In this document: one piece after another, positions 11,086 through 19,494 of the stretch | Layout of the letters: every line of letters starts with the position of its first letter | Numbering within the stretch: position 1 is the stretch's first letter | Origin: Psychromonas sp. CD1 | GTDB taxonomy: Bacteria; Pseudomonadota; Gammaproteobacteria; Enterobacterales; Psychromonadaceae | Direction: 5' to 3' | DNA length: 64,000 bases | Assembly (NCBI RefSeq): GCF_002239585.1 | Contig: NZ_NDFH01000003.1 | Location: forward strand, 620,001 to 684,000 | The notes under the pieces: generated by a model | What the model was told of the DNA's origin: nothing | Seen by the model: only the letters and a program-made list of their open reading frames with translations | Databases searched by the model: none | Position numbers and translations under genes: made by a program

Positions 11086-11367
11086 AATGACTCTCTAAAA
11101 ATACGCTTAAAAATGAGCTTCATTATACGCATATCGCTTATAAATGCGAAGCCCAAAGCAAAAATACTCTTAATGTTCAAATAAACAGCAAACAATGCTT
11201 TCTTATTTCCAATTTTTTTTGCTCATAATCCCACACAACATCCCTCGATATAAAACATGACAAGTGACAAAATTATTATTTATTGTTTTTTTGTATAAAA
11301 AGAATTCACTTTTAGATAAAACCTTGATATTGTCAAGTTAATGAAATTTAAAGAGATTTGTATAACC
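11086..11367 (+). promoter_or_regulatory. his operon upstream region
   Basis: AT-rich stretch between divergent rlmKL and the his leader. A TATAAA-like -10 candidate lies near 11293, and a weaker TTGATA-17-TTTAAA pair lies just upstream of the leader ORF. A small hairpin CTTGA/TCAAG lies near 11322-11336. I could not fix the transcription start. Confidence 0.35.
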
Positions 11368-11430
11368 ATGAAAAATATTAACCTGAAAGCACTACACCAT
11401 CATCATCATATGACGTGATCTTTCATGGAG
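11366..11430 (+). promoter_or_regulatory. Candidate leader hairpin masking the hisD ribosome-binding site
   Basis: Perfect 8-bp inverted repeat CCATGAAA (11366-11373) and TTTCATGG (11421-11428). The left arm holds the hisL start codon and the right arm reaches the hisD Shine-Dalgarno. A ribosome on the His codons would occupy the space between the arms and stop them pairing. A translational switch is my inference; the complementarity is directly visible. Confidence 0.5.
11368..11418 (+). CDS. hisL: his operon leader peptide, five consecutive His codons
   Basis: A 16-codon ORF reads MKNINLKALHHHHHMT and stops with TGA at 11416-11418. Five adjacent His codons (11395-11409) just before a biosynthetic his operon are the hallmark of ribosome-mediated his attenuation. 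Unlike the classic E. coli leader, no intrinsic terminator follows: the stop is only 18 nt from the hisD ATG. The sequence CCATGAAA around the leader start (11366-11373) is perfectly complementary to TTTCATGG (11421-11428), which overlaps the hisD Shine-Dalgarno GGAG (11427-11430). Confidence 0.85.
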   Translation: MKNINLKALHHHHHMT

Positions 11431-11436
11431 TAAAAA

Positions 11437-12765
11437 ATGCAGACTAAAATGAAAATCGTATATTGGTCAAATTTATCTAAAGAAGAAAAAATTCAATTAC
11501 TTACCCGTCCTGCGATGCTTAATAACACACAAATTCGCCAGCAAGTTAACACCATTATCAAGACGATTCGTAAAAAAGGTGATGACGCTTTATTTGACTA
11601 CACAGAACGCTTTGATAACTACACCATAAATAAGAATATAAAAAAAACAAAAGAAGATATTATACAAGCAACTCAGCGCCTTGACTGTAATATTAAAACA
11701 GCAATAAAGAGTGCATATCAACAGGTTCTCAAATTTCACCAAGCCCAACAAACACCAACCATCCGCGTAGAAACATTACCGGGTGTCATCTGTGAGATGC
11801 ACACTCATGCTATTGCATCGGTTGGTTTATATATCCCAGGAGGGAGCGCGCCACTACCTTCAACGGTGATAATGACAGCAACACCTGCGCAAATTGCCGG
11901 CTGTTTGCGCATTGTATTATGCTCTCCGCCACCGATTGCGGATGAAATTCTCTATGCTGCATCTCTATGTGGCGTGAATGAAATTTATAGCGTTGGTGGC
12001 GCGCAAGCTATTGCAGCGCTCGCTTACGGCACCACCAGCATTGCCTCTGTGGACAAAATATTTGGCCCAGGCAATGCTTATGTTACCGAAGCTAAACGTC
12101 AAGTTAGCAGTGATTTAAAAGGTGCCGCTATTGATATGCCTGCGGGCCCTTCAGAAGTATTAATCATTGCCGATAAAGATGCAGATGCAACTTTTATTGC
12201 GGCCGACCTGTTATCACAAGCCGAACATGGGCATGACTCACAAGTTATTTTAGTCACCCCAAGCAAAGCGCTTGCCCAACAAACCTTAATTGAAATAAAA
12301 CAACAACTGCACGTTTTAACACGTCGTGATATTGCCCAACAAGCTTTAGCAAACAGCGTATGTATTATTAGTGACGATATTGCACAAGCCATTCGTATAT
12401 CCAACCGCTATGCCCCCGAGCATTTAATTGTGCAATGTGAAAATGCTCGTGATTTATTACCCCAACTTAAAAATGCTGGCTCTATTTTTTTAGGTCAATG
12501 GACCCCAGAGGCTGTCGGTGATTATGCAAGTGGCACCAATCACGTATTACCCACCTACGGTGCGGCGCGCACTTATTCAAGTTTAGGCTTAGCTGATTTT
12601 ATGCGCAGGTTTAGCGTACAAGAGGTGAGTTGCCAAGGCTTACGTCATCTTGCACCAACGGTGACCTGTCTTGCAGATGCCGAAGGCCTAGATGCACATA
12701 AATATGCCGTTACGATTCGTCTCGACAAATTAATTGCACAGGAAGTTAACCATGAATCCGATTAA
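11437..12765 (+). CDS. hisD: Histidinol dehydrogenase
   Basis: Catalyses the last two oxidations of histidine synthesis (histidinol to histidine, zinc and NAD dependent). 442 aa, full length. Conserved blocks: ASVGLYIPGGSAPLPSTVIM, FGPGNAYVTEAKRQV, DMPAGPSEVLIIAD, LLSQAEHGHDSQ with zinc ligands Gln/His, and the GDYASGTNHVLPTYG core. GGAG lies 6 nt before the ATG. It is the first structural gene here, whereas hisG precedes hisD in enteric operons. Its 3' end overlaps hisC by 14 bp. Confidence 0.97.
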   Translation: MQTKMKIVYWSNLSKEEKIQLLTRPAMLNNTQIRQQVNTIIKTIRKKGDDALFDYTERFDNYTINKNIKKTKEDIIQATQRLDCNIKTAIKSAYQQVLKFHQAQQTPTIRVETLPGVICEMHTHAIASVGLYIPGGSAPLPSTVIMTATPAQIAGCLRIVLCSPPPIADEILYAASLCGVNEIYSVGGAQAIAALAYGTTSIASVDKIFGPGNAYVTEAKRQVSSDLKGAAIDMPAGPSEVLIIADKDADATFIAADLLSQAEHGHDSQVILVTPSKALAQQTLIEIKQQLHVLTRRDIAQQALANSVCIISDDIAQAIRISNRYAPEHLIVQCENARDLLPQLKNAGSIFLGQWTPEAVGDYASGTNHVLPTYGAARTYSSLGLADFMRRFSVQEVSCQGLRHLAPTVTCLADAEGLDAHKYAVTIRLDKLIAQEVNHESD

Positions 12766-13822
12766 ATGCTTAGCCCGAAAAAACATACAATCTTTAACCC
12801 CTTACCTTTCGGCTAGGCGCATTGGTGGCAGTGGTGAAATTTGGCTTAATGCTAATGAAGCACCTGATTGTAGCGTTTATCAATTAGAAGATCAGCATTT
12901 CAATCGTTATCCCGAATTCCAGCCGGCTCAATTGATCCATGCCTATGCAAAATATGCATCAGTTAAAAACGAGCAAATATTGAGCACTCGTGGTGCAGAT
13001 GAAAGTATTGAATTATTAATTCGCACCTTTTGTGAACCCAATCAAGACCGAATTATAATTTGTCCTCCAACTTATGGAATGTATGCCATTAGCGCGCAAA
13101 CATCCGCAGTCGGTGTTTGTGAGATTGCCTTAGATACTGATTTTAATGTTGACTATAAAGCCATTGAACAAACACTGTTAAATGAAAAAAATAATATAAA
13201 AATCGTTTTTTTATGCTCGCCGAATAATCCCAGTGCAAATATGCTCGATAAAGTACAATTAATTAATTTATTACATAGTGCAAAAAATAAAGCTCTGATT
13301 GTTATTGATGAAGCGTATATTGAATTTTGCAATGTACAAACGCTGGTCAATTTAATTGCTGAGCATGAAAATTTAGTGATCTTACGTACTTTATCCAAAG
13401 CCTTTGCCCTCGCCTCCATTCGTTGTGGGTTTAGTCTCGCACAAGAACATATTATCAATATGCTCGCAAAAGTCATTGCTCCGTATCCCATACCTTCACC
13501 CGTAGCGAAAATTGCGACACAAGCTCTCTCAACACAGGGCATACAAACGATGCTTACCCGCGTTGCATTACTGAATAAAAACCGTCAAATACTCTATCAA
13601 GCTCTGCAAGCTCTCCCCTGTGTCGACACAATATTTTGTAGCACCGCTAACTTTTTGTTAGTACGTTTTAATGATGCACCAACCGTTTTTAATGCATTGC
13701 ATCAAGCGGGAATTGTAATGCGTGACTTTTCTAATCAACCACGTTTACACAACTGCATTCGTATCAGTATTGGCTCAAAAGCTGAGATGACAGCCACTCT
13801 CTCTATTTTAAATTCTCTTTAG
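12752..13822 (+). CDS. hisC: Histidinol-phosphate aminotransferase
   Basis: PLP enzyme of histidine synthesis. The fold-type I motifs are clear: WLNANEAP, NRYPEFQP, STRGADESIELLIRTF, CSPNNPS, IDEAYIEF and the PLP-lysine segment LRTLSKAFALASIRCGF. I chose the ATG at 12752 (356 aa, MNPIKCLARKNI) with AGGA about 8 nt upstream; it overlaps the hisD stop. A longer in-frame start at 12734 is less likely. Confidence 0.96.
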   Translation: MNPIKCLARKNIQSLTPYLSARRIGGSGEIWLNANEAPDCSVYQLEDQHFNRYPEFQPAQLIHAYAKYASVKNEQILSTRGADESIELLIRTFCEPNQDRIIICPPTYGMYAISAQTSAVGVCEIALDTDFNVDYKAIEQTLLNEKNNIKIVFLCSPNNPSANMLDKVQLINLLHSAKNKALIVIDEAYIEFCNVQTLVNLIAEHENLVILRTLSKAFALASIRCGFSLAQEHIINMLAKVIAPYPIPSPVAKIATQALSTQGIQTMLTRVALLNKNRQILYQALQALPCVDTIFCSTANFLLVRFNDAPTVFNALHQAGIVMRDFSNQPRLHNCIRISIGSKAEMTATLSILNSL

Positions 13823-13831
13823 GAGCATCAT

Positions 13832-14902
13832 ATGAACAAGCAAAAATTTCTTTTTATTGATAGAGACGGCACGTTAATTGATGAGCCAAATATCGATAAA
13901 CAAGTCGATAGCTTAGAGAAACTTGTTTTTGAAAAGGATGTTATTCCAAGCTTATTAAATTTACAAAAAGCAGGATTTGTTTTAGTACTCATTTCTAATC
14001 AAGATGGTCTTGGATCAGCAAGTTACCCGCAAGCTGACTTTGATTTGGCACAGAACAAAATGATAGAAATATTCACCTCACAAGGTGTACATTTTGAAAA
14101 TATTCTAATTTGCCCTCACTTAGCGAGTGATAATTGTACCTGTCGTAAGCCTCATCTGGGCTTGGTTCGTGGATACCTTAAATCTGGGCGCATTGATTTC
14201 ACCCATTCTTATGTTATTGGTGATCGGAATACCGATATCGAGTTAGCTGAAAACATGGGCTTAACCGGAATTCTTTATCATAAAAAAATTAATTCTTGGC
14301 GCGCTATTGTCAATCAGTTAACTCAAATCAAACGTTATGCATCGGTTATGCGATGTACAAAAGAAACCGAGATTTACGTTTCTGTCGATTTAGATAACCA
14401 AGGTGAAAATAACATCAATACCGGCATTGGTTTTTTTGATCATATGCTCGACCAGATCGCAACACATGCCGGATTTAAAATGCAAGTGGCCGTAACTGGC
14501 GACTTACATATTGATGATCATCACAGCATTGAAGATACAGCTTTAGCTTTAGGTGAAGCGCTAAATAAAGCACTGGGTGATAAACGAGGAATTGGTCGAT
14601 TTGGTTTTGTCTTGCCCATGGATGAAACTAAAGCAAGTTGCACTTTAGATTTATCTGGGCGTCCTTATCTTAAATTTTCGGCGACTTTTCCTCGTGCCAT
14701 CGTAGGTACTATGTGCACTGAAATGGTTGAACATTTTTTCTACTCATTGAGCCAAAGTATGCATGCCACACTGCATATGGACGTGACCGAAGGTAATACC
14801 CACCATATGGTCGAAGCATTATTTAAAACATTTGGACGCACTTTGCGTCAAAGTATTCAAATAGTCGATACTACATTGCCATCGAGTAAGGGTGTTTTAT
14901 GA
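13832..14902 (+). CDS. hisB: Bifunctional histidinol-phosphatase / imidazoleglycerol-phosphate dehydratase
   Basis: 356-aa fusion typical of gammaproteobacteria. The N-terminal HAD phosphatase has the DxD motif [10 protein letters not shown], the zinc-binding Cys/His cluster [14 protein letters not shown] and VIGDRNTD. The C-terminal dehydratase (from about residue 170) has metal-binding His motifs [32 protein letters not shown] and [13 protein letters not shown]. An AGGAG lies just before the ATG, and its stop overlaps the hisH start (ATGA). Confidence 0.97.
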
Positions 14903-15498
14903 TTGTTATCATTGATACAGGATGCGCTAATCTAGCGTCTTTAAGATTTGCCATTGAACGTTTAGGTTATAAAGTTTGTATCAGCTCTGATGCAAAGATA
15001 CTAACGCAAGCGAGTAAACTTTTTTTACCCGGTGTTGGCACCGCGAGCGAAGCCATGAAAAACTTAACCGCGAAAAATTTAATTGCACCGATTAAAGCTC
15101 TCACACAACCTGTTTTAGGTATCTGCCTTGGTATGCAACTTATGATGCAATGCTCAGAAGAGAACGGGTCAACATCAAAGCCAGTAAAAACATTAGGCAT
15201 TATTAAAGGTGCAATAAAAAAGATGCACGTTACCCCTTTACGCCTGCCACATATGGGTTGGAATAAAGTTCACGCACGTGAAAATGAAGCGCTTTTTAAA
15301 AACATTCCTACTGATAGCTATTTCTATTTTGTACACAGTTATGCACTAGGCCCCCATAAAAATAGCCGAGCAAATTGTGAATATGGCGCAACATTTAGCG
15401 CCACTATTCAACAAAATAATTTTTATGGTGTGCAATTTCATCCTGAGCGCTCCGCATCTGTCGGATCCCAATTAATAAAAAACTTTTTGGAACTATAA
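14899..15498 (+). CDS. hisH: Imidazole glycerol phosphate synthase, glutaminase subunit
   Basis: Class I glutamine amidotransferase that feeds ammonia to HisF. The 199-aa protein has the nucleophile Cys in [12 protein letters not shown], the oxyanion-strand region [13 protein letters not shown], and the catalytic His/Glu in GVQFHPERS. Overlap with hisB is 4 bp, and one base separates it from hisA, indicating translational coupling. Confidence 0.96.
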
Positions 15499-15499
15499 A

Positions 15500-16228
15500 A
15501 TGATTATTCCTGCATTAGATTTAATTGATGGCAAAGTCGTACGTTTATACCAAGGTGATTATTCCCAGAAAAAAGTTTATGCCAATGACGCTCAAAGTCT
15601 TTTCCATCTTTATCAAAAAGAAGGTGCAAATTGGTTGCACCTTGTAGATTTAGATGGCGCAAAAGACAGCAGTAAACGTCAATTTAAAAGCATCTCGGCT
15701 CTGATTAGAAATACAAATGCCAACATTCAAATTGGAGGGGGTATTCGTACCGAAGACGATGTGATAAACCTTTTAAAGATAGGAGCAAAACGCGTTGTTA
15801 TTGGATCCCTTGCTGTGCAACAACCAAGACTGGTTGCTTCCTGGTTACACAAATATGGCCCTGAGAAGATTGTCTTAGCCTTAGATATTAATATTGACGC
15901 ACAAGGCAATAAAATGATCGCAATTTCAGGTTGGCAAGAAAAGAGCAAACAAAGTATTCGCTCTTTACTTGAGATTTATTTACCCCTTGGTTTAATACAT
16001 GTGCTCTGCACTGACATTTCAAAAGATGGCACTTTACATGGATCTAATGTCTCACTTTATCAAGAACTCAGTAGTGCTTACCCACAAATACAATGGCAAG
16101 CATCAGGTGGCATTGGTCATTTAAATGATATCCGTGCGGTTGCAAATTCTGGAGTCTCGGCCGTTATCATTGGACGCGCTCTTCTCGAAGATAAATTTAA
16201 TGTGCGCGAGGCAATACAATGCTGGTAA
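15500..16228 (+). CDS. hisA: ProFAR isomerase
   Basis: (beta/alpha)8-barrel isomerase acting on ProFAR, the step before HisFH. The 242-aa protein starts [20 protein letters not shown] with catalytic Asp 7 (IPALDL), and carries phosphate-binding [13 protein letters not shown] and [11 protein letters not shown] plus the second catalytic-Asp region [10 protein letters not shown]. It lies one base after hisH. Confidence 0.96.
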
Positions 16229-16277: not shown

Positions 16278-17051
16278 ATGTTAGCCAAAAGAATTATTCC
16301 TTGCTTAGATGTACGAAATGGAATGGTGGTCAAAGGCGTACAATTTCGAGATCATAAAATTGTAGGCGATATTTTAACGCTTGCGCAGCGCTATGCTGAA
16401 CAAGGGGCAGATGAATTGGTTTTTTATGATATCAGCGCAAGCACAGATAACCGTGTTGTTGATAAAAGTTGGGTAAGGCGTGTTGCAGAAGTGATTGATA
16501 TTCCCTTTTGTGTTGCAGGTGGCATCAAAACATTACACGATGCACAACAAATTTTACAATTTGGCGCCGATAAAATATCCATCAATAGCCCCGCTTTAAA
16601 TGACCCGAATTTAATAAATAAACTCAGTGAAAAATTCGGAGTGCAATGTATCGTTATTGGAATTGACTCGTTTTTTGATGTTAAAAGTGGCCAATATCAC
16701 GTGAAACAATTTACCGGTGATGAAAAAAAAATACGCACGACAAAGTGGAACACTCTTGACTGGATATCTGAAGTGCAGAAACGTGGTGCAGGAGAGATAG
16801 TCCTAAATGTCATGAATAATGATGGCGTACGCAATGGTTACGATATTGCACAATTAAGCAAAGCACGTAGCCTTTGCCATGTGCCACTTATTGCCTCAGG
16901 AGGCGCAGGGAAAATGTCTCATTTTAGTGATGTTTTTAAACAAAGTGACGTTGATGGCGCCTTAGCTGCCAGTGTTTTTCATCAACAGATTATAGATATT
17001 CACACCTTAAAAACTTACCTTAAACAACAACAAATAGAGATCCGCTCATGA
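16278..17051 (+). CDS. hisF: Imidazole glycerol phosphate synthase, cyclase subunit
   Basis: Barrel partner of HisH, making IGP and AICAR from PRFAR and ammonia. The 257 aa are full length. Catalytic Asp motifs are in [16 protein letters not shown] and [14 protein letters not shown]; phosphate binding is in VAGGIKT and [10 protein letters not shown] 49-nt gap separates it from hisA, unlike the overlap usual in enterics, and it has its own ribosome site (AAGGTGACG). It overlaps hisI by 4 bp. Confidence 0.96.
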
Positions 17052-17686
17052 CCCGTAAATTAATGGATGAACAACAATTTAACGCCCTCAACTGGGAAAA
17101 AGTCAATAATCTTATGCCCGTTATTGTACAAAACCGTGATTCGGGAAAAGTACTCATGCTCGGTTATGTTAATCAACAAGCATTAACGCATACCCTTCAC
17201 TCAGGTAAAATGACTTTTTTTAGTCGAAGTAAACAGCGCTTATGGCGCAAAGGGGAACAGTCGGGTAATTTTCTAAATGTCATTGAAATAAGCAGTGATT
17301 GCGATAACGATTCACTGCTTGCACTTGTTGAGCCTATTGGCCCTACCTGTCACTTAAATACGGAAAGTTGTTTTAAGAATAAAGAAAAACTCGCTCTTAG
17401 TTTTTTTGCCGATCTAGAAAAAATTGTGGCAAGTCGCAAAGGCGCAGATCCTAAAAGTAGCTATAGCGCAAGCTTATATGCACAAGGCACGAAACGTATT
17501 GCGCAAAAAGTAGGGGAAGAAGGCGTTGAAGTAGCTTTGGCAGCCATGGGAAAAGATCGGGATGAACTCACGAATGAAAGCGCAGATCTTATCTATCATC
17601 TCATTGTGTTATTACAAAATGAAGGTTTAAACCTACAAGATGTTGCATGCAAACTCCAACAACGTCATCAAATATCTAAAGAATAA
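17048..17686 (+). CDS. hisI: Bifunctional PR-AMP cyclohydrolase / PR-ATP pyrophosphatase
   Basis: HisIE fusion of 212 aa catalysing steps 2 and 3 of histidine synthesis. The N-terminal cyclohydrolase has [30 protein letters not shown], the metal site SDCDNDS and GPTCH. The C-terminal pyrophosphatase has [20 protein letters not shown] and [17 protein letters not shown]. It ends the operon. Step 1 (HisG) is not encoded nearby, so the operon as seen cannot start the pathway alone. Confidence 0.96.
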
Positions 17687-17790: not shown

Positions 17791-18351
17791 TTATTGGCGT
17801 AACAACACACTGACATCACTATGTTCAAAAATTTTACCATGATTATCTAATATCATGGTTTGCTTATCAGACAATTTATCGCCTTGTAATGTTAATTGTT
17901 GTTTAAAATCACGCATTTTAGCATTTTTTAACATAAAGGGAGATTGAATCAATTGCCAATCTCCCTTTTCAATACTCGCGTGTACATCAAAAACAAATGC
18001 CTTTTCCTGGTTGACCGCCACACTGCCCCCCGCAAGTACACAAACACCTCGAGGGATAGCTAATGAACGCATCACACTATTATTGTTTGCATCCCACATC
18101 CAATATCCAGTTTCACAATGGATGATTTTATTATCACTCCGACGCTGCACTTGTTGCATATAATGAACTGCGCTGATGCTTTGTTCTTCGGCATTGCTCA
18201 CTTCACCAGCGGCACTAAATGTAATACTTTCATAATACAGCGAGGTTTGGAGTCCATCGGGATCAAGCGCGACACCAAGGCCTTTTTTACCACTCCACGT
18301 ACCTATTAATCCCGTCAACGGACCATAATTAACACTGTCAGATTTGTTCAT
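17791..18351 (-). CDS. Heme-binding beta-barrel (nitrobindin/FABP-like) protein, copy 1
   Basis: 186-aa protein of the heme-binding beta-barrel family (THAP4/nitrobindin-like, DUF1794). Family-type blocks are VNYGPLTGLIGTWSGKKG near the start, the Glu-Thr-Gly-Tyr-Trp strand in HCETGYWMWD, SLAIPRGVCVLAGG, and the DWQLIQSPFML region. No signal peptide is seen, so it is likely cytoplasmic. It is a close paralogue of the gene at 18934-19494: same length, colinear, same strand. The natural ligand is unknown, and I did not identify a definite heme-ligating His. Confidence 0.75.
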   Translation of the reverse strand: MNKSDSVNYGPLTGLIGTWSGKKGLGVALDPDGLQTSLYYESITFSAAGEVSNAEEQSISAVHYMQQVQRRSDNKIIHCETGYWMWDANNNSVMRSLAIPRGVCVLAGGSVAVNQEKAFVFDVHASIEKGDWQLIQSPFMLKNAKMRDFKQQLTLQGDKLSDKQTMILDNHGKIFEHSDVSVLLRQ

Positions 18352-18933: not shown

Positions 18934-19494
18934 TTATTTGCGCAAGAGCGTACTGCCATCCGTATGCTCAAAAATCTTACCATAAATATCTAAGAGCATG
19001 GTTTGCTTATAAGATAATGTATCCCCATTCAGCGTCAATTGTTGCGCATAATGTGTCATTTTCGCTTTTTTTAACATGAAGGGGGATTGAATCAATTGCC
19101 AATCTCCTTTTTCAATACAAGCTTGTACATCAAAAACCAACATGTTTTCTTGGTTTTTGATCACATTTCCACCCGCGAGCACACACATACCTCGCGGAAT
19201 AGTTAACGAATGCATCACACTATTATCCTTTGTACCCCACATCCAATAGCCAGTTTCACGATGAATCACTTTATTGTTACTAATTCGGCAAACTTGCTGT
19301 ATATAATGAACCGCGCTAAGACATTGTTCTTCTGCATTACAGACCTCACCCGCTTCACTAAACGTAATATTTTCATAATAAAGATTAGTCTCTGTTCCAT
19401 CTGGCTCAGGCGCAATATCCGTGCCTTTTTCCCCATGCCAATCGCCGATTAACCCCGCCAATGGTCCATAATTAACACTGCCATCTTTACTCAT
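18934..19494 (-). CDS. Heme-binding beta-barrel (nitrobindin/FABP-like) protein, copy 2
   Basis: Second 186-aa member of the family. It shares SVNYGPLAGLIGDWHGEKG, YYENITFSEAGEVCNAEEQ, HRETGYWMWG, LTIPRGMCVLAGG, EKGDWQLIQSPFMLK and IYGKIFEHTDGS with copy 1. The pair is best explained by tandem duplication followed by moderate divergence. This copy is closer to the family consensus as I recall it (PEPDGTE, DIYGKIFEHTD). No signal peptide. Confidence 0.75.
   Translation of the reverse strand: MSKDGSVNYGPLAGLIGDWHGEKGTDIAPEPDGTETNLYYENITFSEAGEVCNAEEQCLSAVHYIQQVCRISNNKVIHRETGYWMWGTKDNSVMHSLTIPRGMCVLAGGNVIKNQENMLVFDVQACIEKGDWQLIQSPFMLKKAKMTHYAQQLTLNGDTLSYKQTMLLDIYGKIFEHTDGSTLLRK

Follow-up and report, generated by a model that had tools for sequence, protein, structure and literature searches.

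Introduction

Attenuators of the His_leader family (Rfam RF00514) are widespread in Psychromonas, their gathering score being reached in 21 of the 23 congeners (19 of 19 plus 2 of 4) of the bacterium considered here. The his locus of Psychromonas sp. CD1 resembles those of its matching relatives in its leader ORF with a run of His codons, its upstream context and the A arm of its attenuator. In contrast, it lacks the rest of the attenuator beyond the middle of the B arm, terminator included, as well as nearly all of hisG, and RF00514 has no match at the gathering score in the window (the whole stretch of 64,000 nucleotides that was analysed) or in the genome's own HisD locus (L111), nor at E up to 10 between positions 11250 and 11500. 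A leader of the form CTGAAA...TTTCAGG is found in 22 of the 23 congeners. The remaining one, G017 (locus L134), is the sole congener in which the ORF test recognises no His leader ahead of hisG; like G014, it has no RF00514 match.

Another arrangement without hisG between the leader and hisD occurs in Actinobacillus genomosp. 2, where a full His_leader attenuator directly precedes hisD (L099:2802-3010). There, hisG, which is present elsewhere in that genome, became separated from the operon independently, and the RF00514 attenuator was kept. Psychromonas sp. CD1 has neither.

Leader ORFs can also act on translation. In the macrolide translational attenuators (erm leaders), a stalled leader ribosome opens an inhibitory stem-loop. 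The same role for a stalled leader ribosome has been proposed for the present locus, with the difference that any effect of stalling is a predicted one here. In the passages on the LEU element of Actinobacteria in PMC1262725, a leader ORF rich in the amino acid of the pathway is described, with possible pairing to the Shine-Dalgarno (SD) sequence of the first structural gene, as in the locus described here. Nevertheless, the Leu codons of that element themselves pair with the leuA SD across species, unlike the arms of the present locus, which lie outside the His codons and occur in one genome, and the same passages of PMC1262725 express doubt about a mechanism based on leader translation.

The his operon and its source genome

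The Psychromonas sp. CD1 assembly (1,688,234 bases in 3 contigs) matches that of Psychromonas sp. CDP1 as presented in the main text of PMC5893861 (3 contigs, 1,688,241 bp), a gut symbiont with a reduced genome from the hadal amphipod Hirondellea gigas of the Challenger Deep. According to that text, the CDP1 genome was derived from a metagenome, its gaps were closed by PCR and its parts were linked by hand; its completeness is given there as 99.3%, vs 79.9% in the present analysis. We compared the HisD loci of 24 genomes of the genus, namely that of CDP1 and those of 23 relatives. The nearest relative, G010, we take to be Psychromonas sp. CNPT3, and a second one used below, G005, is presumably P. 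ingrahamii 37.

Downstream of the leader lie seven his genes, namely hisD, C, B, H, A, F and IE (Table 1), and all seven reading frames are open. The leader ORF has five His codons, and its product, MKNINLKALHHHHHMT, is identical in G010, the two DNA sequences differing by 2 synonymous substitutions. This bears out the original prediction that it is a true his leader peptide, and both the scans and the coordinates agree with its further claim that the hisD ATG lies 18 nt past the leader stop with no terminator or hisG in between.

Table 1. Features of the his locus of Psychromonas sp. CDP1, in window coordinates
Feature	Position	Strand	Basis
Candidate promoter: -35 TTCACT (11305-11310), 17-nt spacer, -10 TATTGT (11328-11333)	11305..11333	+	Hexamers assigned by eye; weak consensus match
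5' arm CCATGAAA at the leader start	11366..11373	+	Complementary to 11421-11428
his leader ORF encoding MKNINLKALHHHHHMT, 16 codons; ATG at 11368, stop TGA at 11416-11418	11368..11418	+	Alignment with G010
A arm of the ancestral his attenuator, CCTGAAAG, within the leader ORF	11382..11389	+	CTGAAA in 23/23 aligned leaders
TCTTTCA, left over from the B arm of the attenuator; forms the left flank of the junction (base 11425 on both sides)	11419..11425	+	Alignment with G010 TGATCTTTCAGGATC
3' arm TTTCATGG, chimera made by the junction	11421..11428	+	Perfect complement of CCATGAAA
ATG GAG TAA, last two hisG codons and stop, right side of the junction	11425..11433	+	hisG ends ATGATGGAGTA(A/G) in 23 relatives
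hisD, histidinol dehydrogenase; ATG at 11437	11437..12765	+	PF00815, E 1.2e-163
hisC, histidinol-phosphate aminotransferase (named from operon position)	12752..13822	+	PF00155
hisB, bifunctional phosphatase/dehydratase	13832..14902	+	PF00475 and HAD-like domains
hisH (named from operon position)	14899..15498	+	PF00117
hisA	15500..16228	+	PF00977
hisF	16278..17051	+	PF00977
hisIE	17048..17686	+	PF01502 and PF01503

The terminator scan reported 0 terminator-like sites between 11250 and 11600. As a control, the identical scan of G010 returned 2 overlapping sites at the matching place, which correspond to the attenuator terminator. With no terminator, the operon of CDP1 would be read through regardless of histidine, and, judged from the structure of the locus, transcription attenuation is lost. 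The ancestral A arm remains, and its CTGAAA is complementary to the TTTCAG found past the leader stop in 22 relatives. The distance from the leader stop to the hisG motif is 363 nt in G016 (L120) and 195 nt in G013 (L128), vs 135-143 nt in the other relatives.

The candidate promoter falls in a block that aligns with the 22 relatives that keep the leader. A scan for consensus promoters (at least 9 of 12 matching positions) reported its hexamers neither in the window nor at the G010 counterpart. The same scan gave 3 sites in the window vs 1.9 in shuffled sequences; this is the level of chance, and a consensus promoter was rejected.

No HisG was found in the three-contig, 1,688,234-base assembly with PF01634. 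Searched with the HisG sequence of G010 at E up to 10, the assembly likewise returned nothing, not even fragments, although the same query has matches in both G010 and G005. Thus, the alternative left open in the original prediction, that hisG lies at another site, is ruled out for this assembly. PF01634 detects HisG in 23 of 23 congeners and in 55 of a set of 60 genomes to which CDP1 itself belongs. The four other HisG-less genomes among these 60 are all devoid of HisD as well, which leaves CDP1 as the sole keeper of HisD among the five. Without an ATP phosphoribosyltransferase, de novo histidine synthesis would lack its entry step. Given the two completeness values, hisG could conceivably lie in a gap of the assembly.

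The probable deletion junction

Alignment with G010 delimits the missing segment. On the left, G010 reads TGATCTTTCA/GGATC and continues into the attenuator; on the right, the end of its hisG reads AAAGATGA/TGGAGTAA, followed by hisD. The window reads TGATCTTTCA/TGGAGTAAAAAATG. In other words, the attenuator sequence TGATCTTTCA is joined to (A)TGGAGTAA, which comprises the last two hisG codons and the stop codon, the latter being TAA or TAG across the junctions of the 23 relatives. A segment of 1000 bp of the G010 sequence is missing in CDP1, and a single nucleotide (A) is common to both sides. The SD of hisD, GGAG at 11427-11430, located 6 nt before its ATG, is the old tail of hisG.

Based on this comparison of sequences, the locus very probably bears the mark of a single natural deletion in the shrinking genome of a symbiont, by which hisG and the attenuator were lost together. 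The joint loss had been surmised in the original prediction and can now be placed to the base. The deletion would have run from within the B arm of the attenuator through the third-last hisG codon, and the 1-nt overlap of the two sides suggests illegitimate recombination as its route. It would have spared the promoter region, the intact leader ORF with its five His codons, the last two codons of hisG with their stop, and hisDCBHAF(IE). The leader peptide is a survivor of the deletion.

It is very unlikely that the junction is an assembly artefact, i.e. that the organism has hisG and its attenuator and that they were skipped in the metagenomic assembly. In favour of an artefact, the sequence comes from a single metagenome-derived assembly with the PCR gap closing and hand linking described in the main text of PMC5893861, and the downstream his genes look fully constrained. 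However, the two sides of the junction share 1 nt, which is too little for a k-mer join and gives poor support to a mis-join of this type, and no fragment of hisG occurs anywhere in the assembly.

Literature searches returned no description of a deletion of hisG and its attenuator in CDP1, and the word 'histidine' occurs 0 times in the main text of PMC5893861. That main text reports the loss of torCAD from the same genome, which is likewise an operon loss in CDP1 relative to other Psychromonas. Nevertheless, the reported loss of torCAD is that of an operon, whereas the his operon lost only its first gene and its regulator and is otherwise intact. A natural deletion at this site would offer a base-level view of the decapitation of a pathway, in which one short event took the committed enzyme together with its end-product control, while the genes further along the operon can still be read. 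The locus, in which seven enzymes appear intact, may capture an early stage in the loss of a pathway by an animal symbiont.

Translation of hisD behind the leader

In the relatives, the hisD start codon lies no more than a few to roughly a dozen nt from the hisG stop, and its translation was therefore probably coupled to that of hisG before the deletion. Where hisD translation formerly started close behind the hisG stop, it would now begin at an ATG 18 nt past the end of the leader ORF and might draw on ribosomes coming from there. Compatible with the deletion scar, ribosomes that end at 11418 could reinitiate at hisD, so that its output would track translation of the leader with no RNA switch, and hisD output would be predicted to fall under histidine starvation. 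The short gap, the position of the GGAG 6 nt ahead of the ATG and the spacing in the relatives all fit this proposal, while the presence of an SD of its own in front of hisD argues against it. On balance we regard it as quite plausible, if a little short of probable. Compared with a switch opened by stalling, such coupling would be the simpler route by which the leader might act on hisD.

Possible pairing of the leader start with the hisD Shine-Dalgarno sequence

The coordinates agree with the 8-bp perfect complementarity between CCATGAAA and TTTCATGG that was originally pointed out, and the 3' arm covers the GG of the hisD SD. According to the original prediction, translational control replaced attenuation: the leader start and the downstream arm would mask the SD, and ribosomes stalled at the His codons would keep the two arms apart and expose it. 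We regard such a mechanism as unlikely. Five His codons in the leader ORF would be suitable end-product sensor codons, and several predictions point in its direction. The duplex of CCATGAAA with TTTCATGG has a predicted energy of -8.3 kcal/mol, and a perfect stem of at least 8 bp touching the SD turned up in 51 of 2000 leader shuffles that kept the SD end, so that the complement taken alone is modestly unusual (about 2.6%). The predicted exposure of the SD (as unpaired) at 37 C is 0.36, vs 0.74 for the native hisD in G010.

Other results argue against an evolved switch. The 3' arm is composed of TTTCA inherited from the attenuator, which provides 5 of the 8 pairs, and of ATGG from hisG, and it thus represents a chance chimera. 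It is present in none of the 22 relatives with a leader and is confined to the CDP1 genome; therefore, co-variation of the arms cannot be shown, and the alignment with related leaders that was originally suggested reveals no conservation of this arm. The leader-hisD region folds no better than shuffled sequences (z = -0.78, with 46 of 200 shuffles equally stable). At 4 C, the exposure of the native SD in G010 (0.20) is no higher than that of CDP1 (0.24). Of 399 simulated junctions, 371 were at most as accessible as the real one at 37 C, a number that falls to 96 at 4 C. The real junction is not unusually masking, and selection for it was rejected. Of the original proposal of translational control in place of attenuation, the loss of the attenuator is supported, and an evolved switch is not.

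The ancestral A arm can also pair with the bulged remnant of the B arm in the window, with a predicted energy of -5.9 vs -10.8 for the A:B duplex of G010. Two weak and mutually exclusive helices, one between the A arm and the broken B arm and the other between the leader start and the scar, might therefore cover part of the SD. We found no indication of selection for helices that cover it.

The position of the stalled ribosome bears on the original mechanism too. A ribosome whose A site holds the first His codon covers about 11377-11408; the ancestral A arm lies inside this footprint and the 5' arm CCATGAAA outside, so that a stall at the His codons leaves the latter uncovered. When pairing around the ribosome is allowed, stalling changes the predicted SD exposure little: it becomes 0.37-0.45 at 37 C (0.36 without a stalled ribosome) and 0.23-0.31 at 4 C (0.24 without one), and slightly different footprints give agreeing values. 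When pairing across the ribosome is forbidden, exposure reaches 0.45-0.70 at 37 C, in favour of a switch, and ranges from 0.11 to 0.51 at 4 C, where one stall position lowers it (0.11). Opening of the SD by stalling thus rests on a steric assumption, and, since most stall positions would leave the SD more exposed if cross-ribosome pairing were sterically impossible, these results weaken the idea of a switch without going further. Slightly less probable still is a one-step conversion of the attenuator into a rudimentary His-responsive translational switch, in which the cut arm of the pause helix and the hisG codons would partly cover the SD, the His5 leader would exert control and the seven genes of the operon would still be under selection.

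Constraint on the remaining his genes

Having lost hisG, the operon might be expected to decay. We compared pN/pS to G010 for 50 gene pairs, i.e. the 7 his genes and 43 other genes of the window, two neighbouring genes of which share one G010 partner. The medians are 0.20 for the his genes and 0.16 for the others (p = 0.12). By dN alone, the his genes evolve faster (p = 0.05). G005 was used as a third sequence for the 32 of these 50 pairs that have a usable orthologue in the G005 loci fetched (6 his and 26 others); hisIE, which has no match in the G005 stretch, was left out. The ratio of residues unique to CDP1 to those unique to G010 is 105:119 (0.88) in the six his genes vs 289:240 (1.20) in the 26 others, with a Fisher p = 0.056 toward less change in CDP1 and a gene-wise Mann-Whitney p = 0.29. 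Accordingly, the raised dN of the his genes comes from both the CDP1 and the G010 branches. Decay of the remaining his genes was rejected, as the pN/pS difference gives p = 0.12 and the three-way counts run the opposite way.

The conserved positions of HisD were also compared, using a motif that picked out HisD in 70 loci out of 104; 80 of these 104 loci were drawn from the matches listed. At the 154 highly conserved columns, CDP1 departs at 4, a number reached by 4 of the 68 other sequences among the matches listed. All four departures are common to G010; over the same columns and among the matches listed, none is specific to CDP1 and 3 are specific to G010.

By these measures of substitution, the six testable his genes appear free of signs of relaxed constraint, and the intactness of the remaining genes is different from what simple decay predicts. 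This would mean that the deletion is recent relative to the split of CDP1 and G010, that it is polymorphic or that the enzymes are still useful. The present data fit a young deletion, a polymorphism and a retained use alike and do not separate them.

As a specific form of retained use, hisDCBHAF(IE) could have been kept for a function with another starting point than ATP and PRPP, such as the conversion of an imported late intermediate, e.g. histidinol. Consistent with it are the lack of relaxation on the CDP1 branch and the finding that the four other HisG-less genomes of the order are without HisD too. However, histidinol would not require hisB, H, A, F or IE, and a very recent deletion accounts for the same data; we consider this proposal unlikely. 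SBP_bac_3 domains number 1 in CDP1, 5 in G010 and 13 in G005, counts that say nothing on histidine import.

Two features of the window outside the operon were noted in these comparisons. Two neighbouring genes on the minus strand (17791-18351 and 18934-19494) code for proteins with THAP4-like heme-binding domains. Within the G010 stretches retrieved, both are closest to one and the same gene, with 69% and 78% identity, respectively, and they apparently represent a duplication retained within a shrinking genome. Lastly, the stretch 51102-51582 matches nine places in G005, in whole or in part, at 72-83% DNA identity, and thus belongs to a multi-copy element or a gene family.
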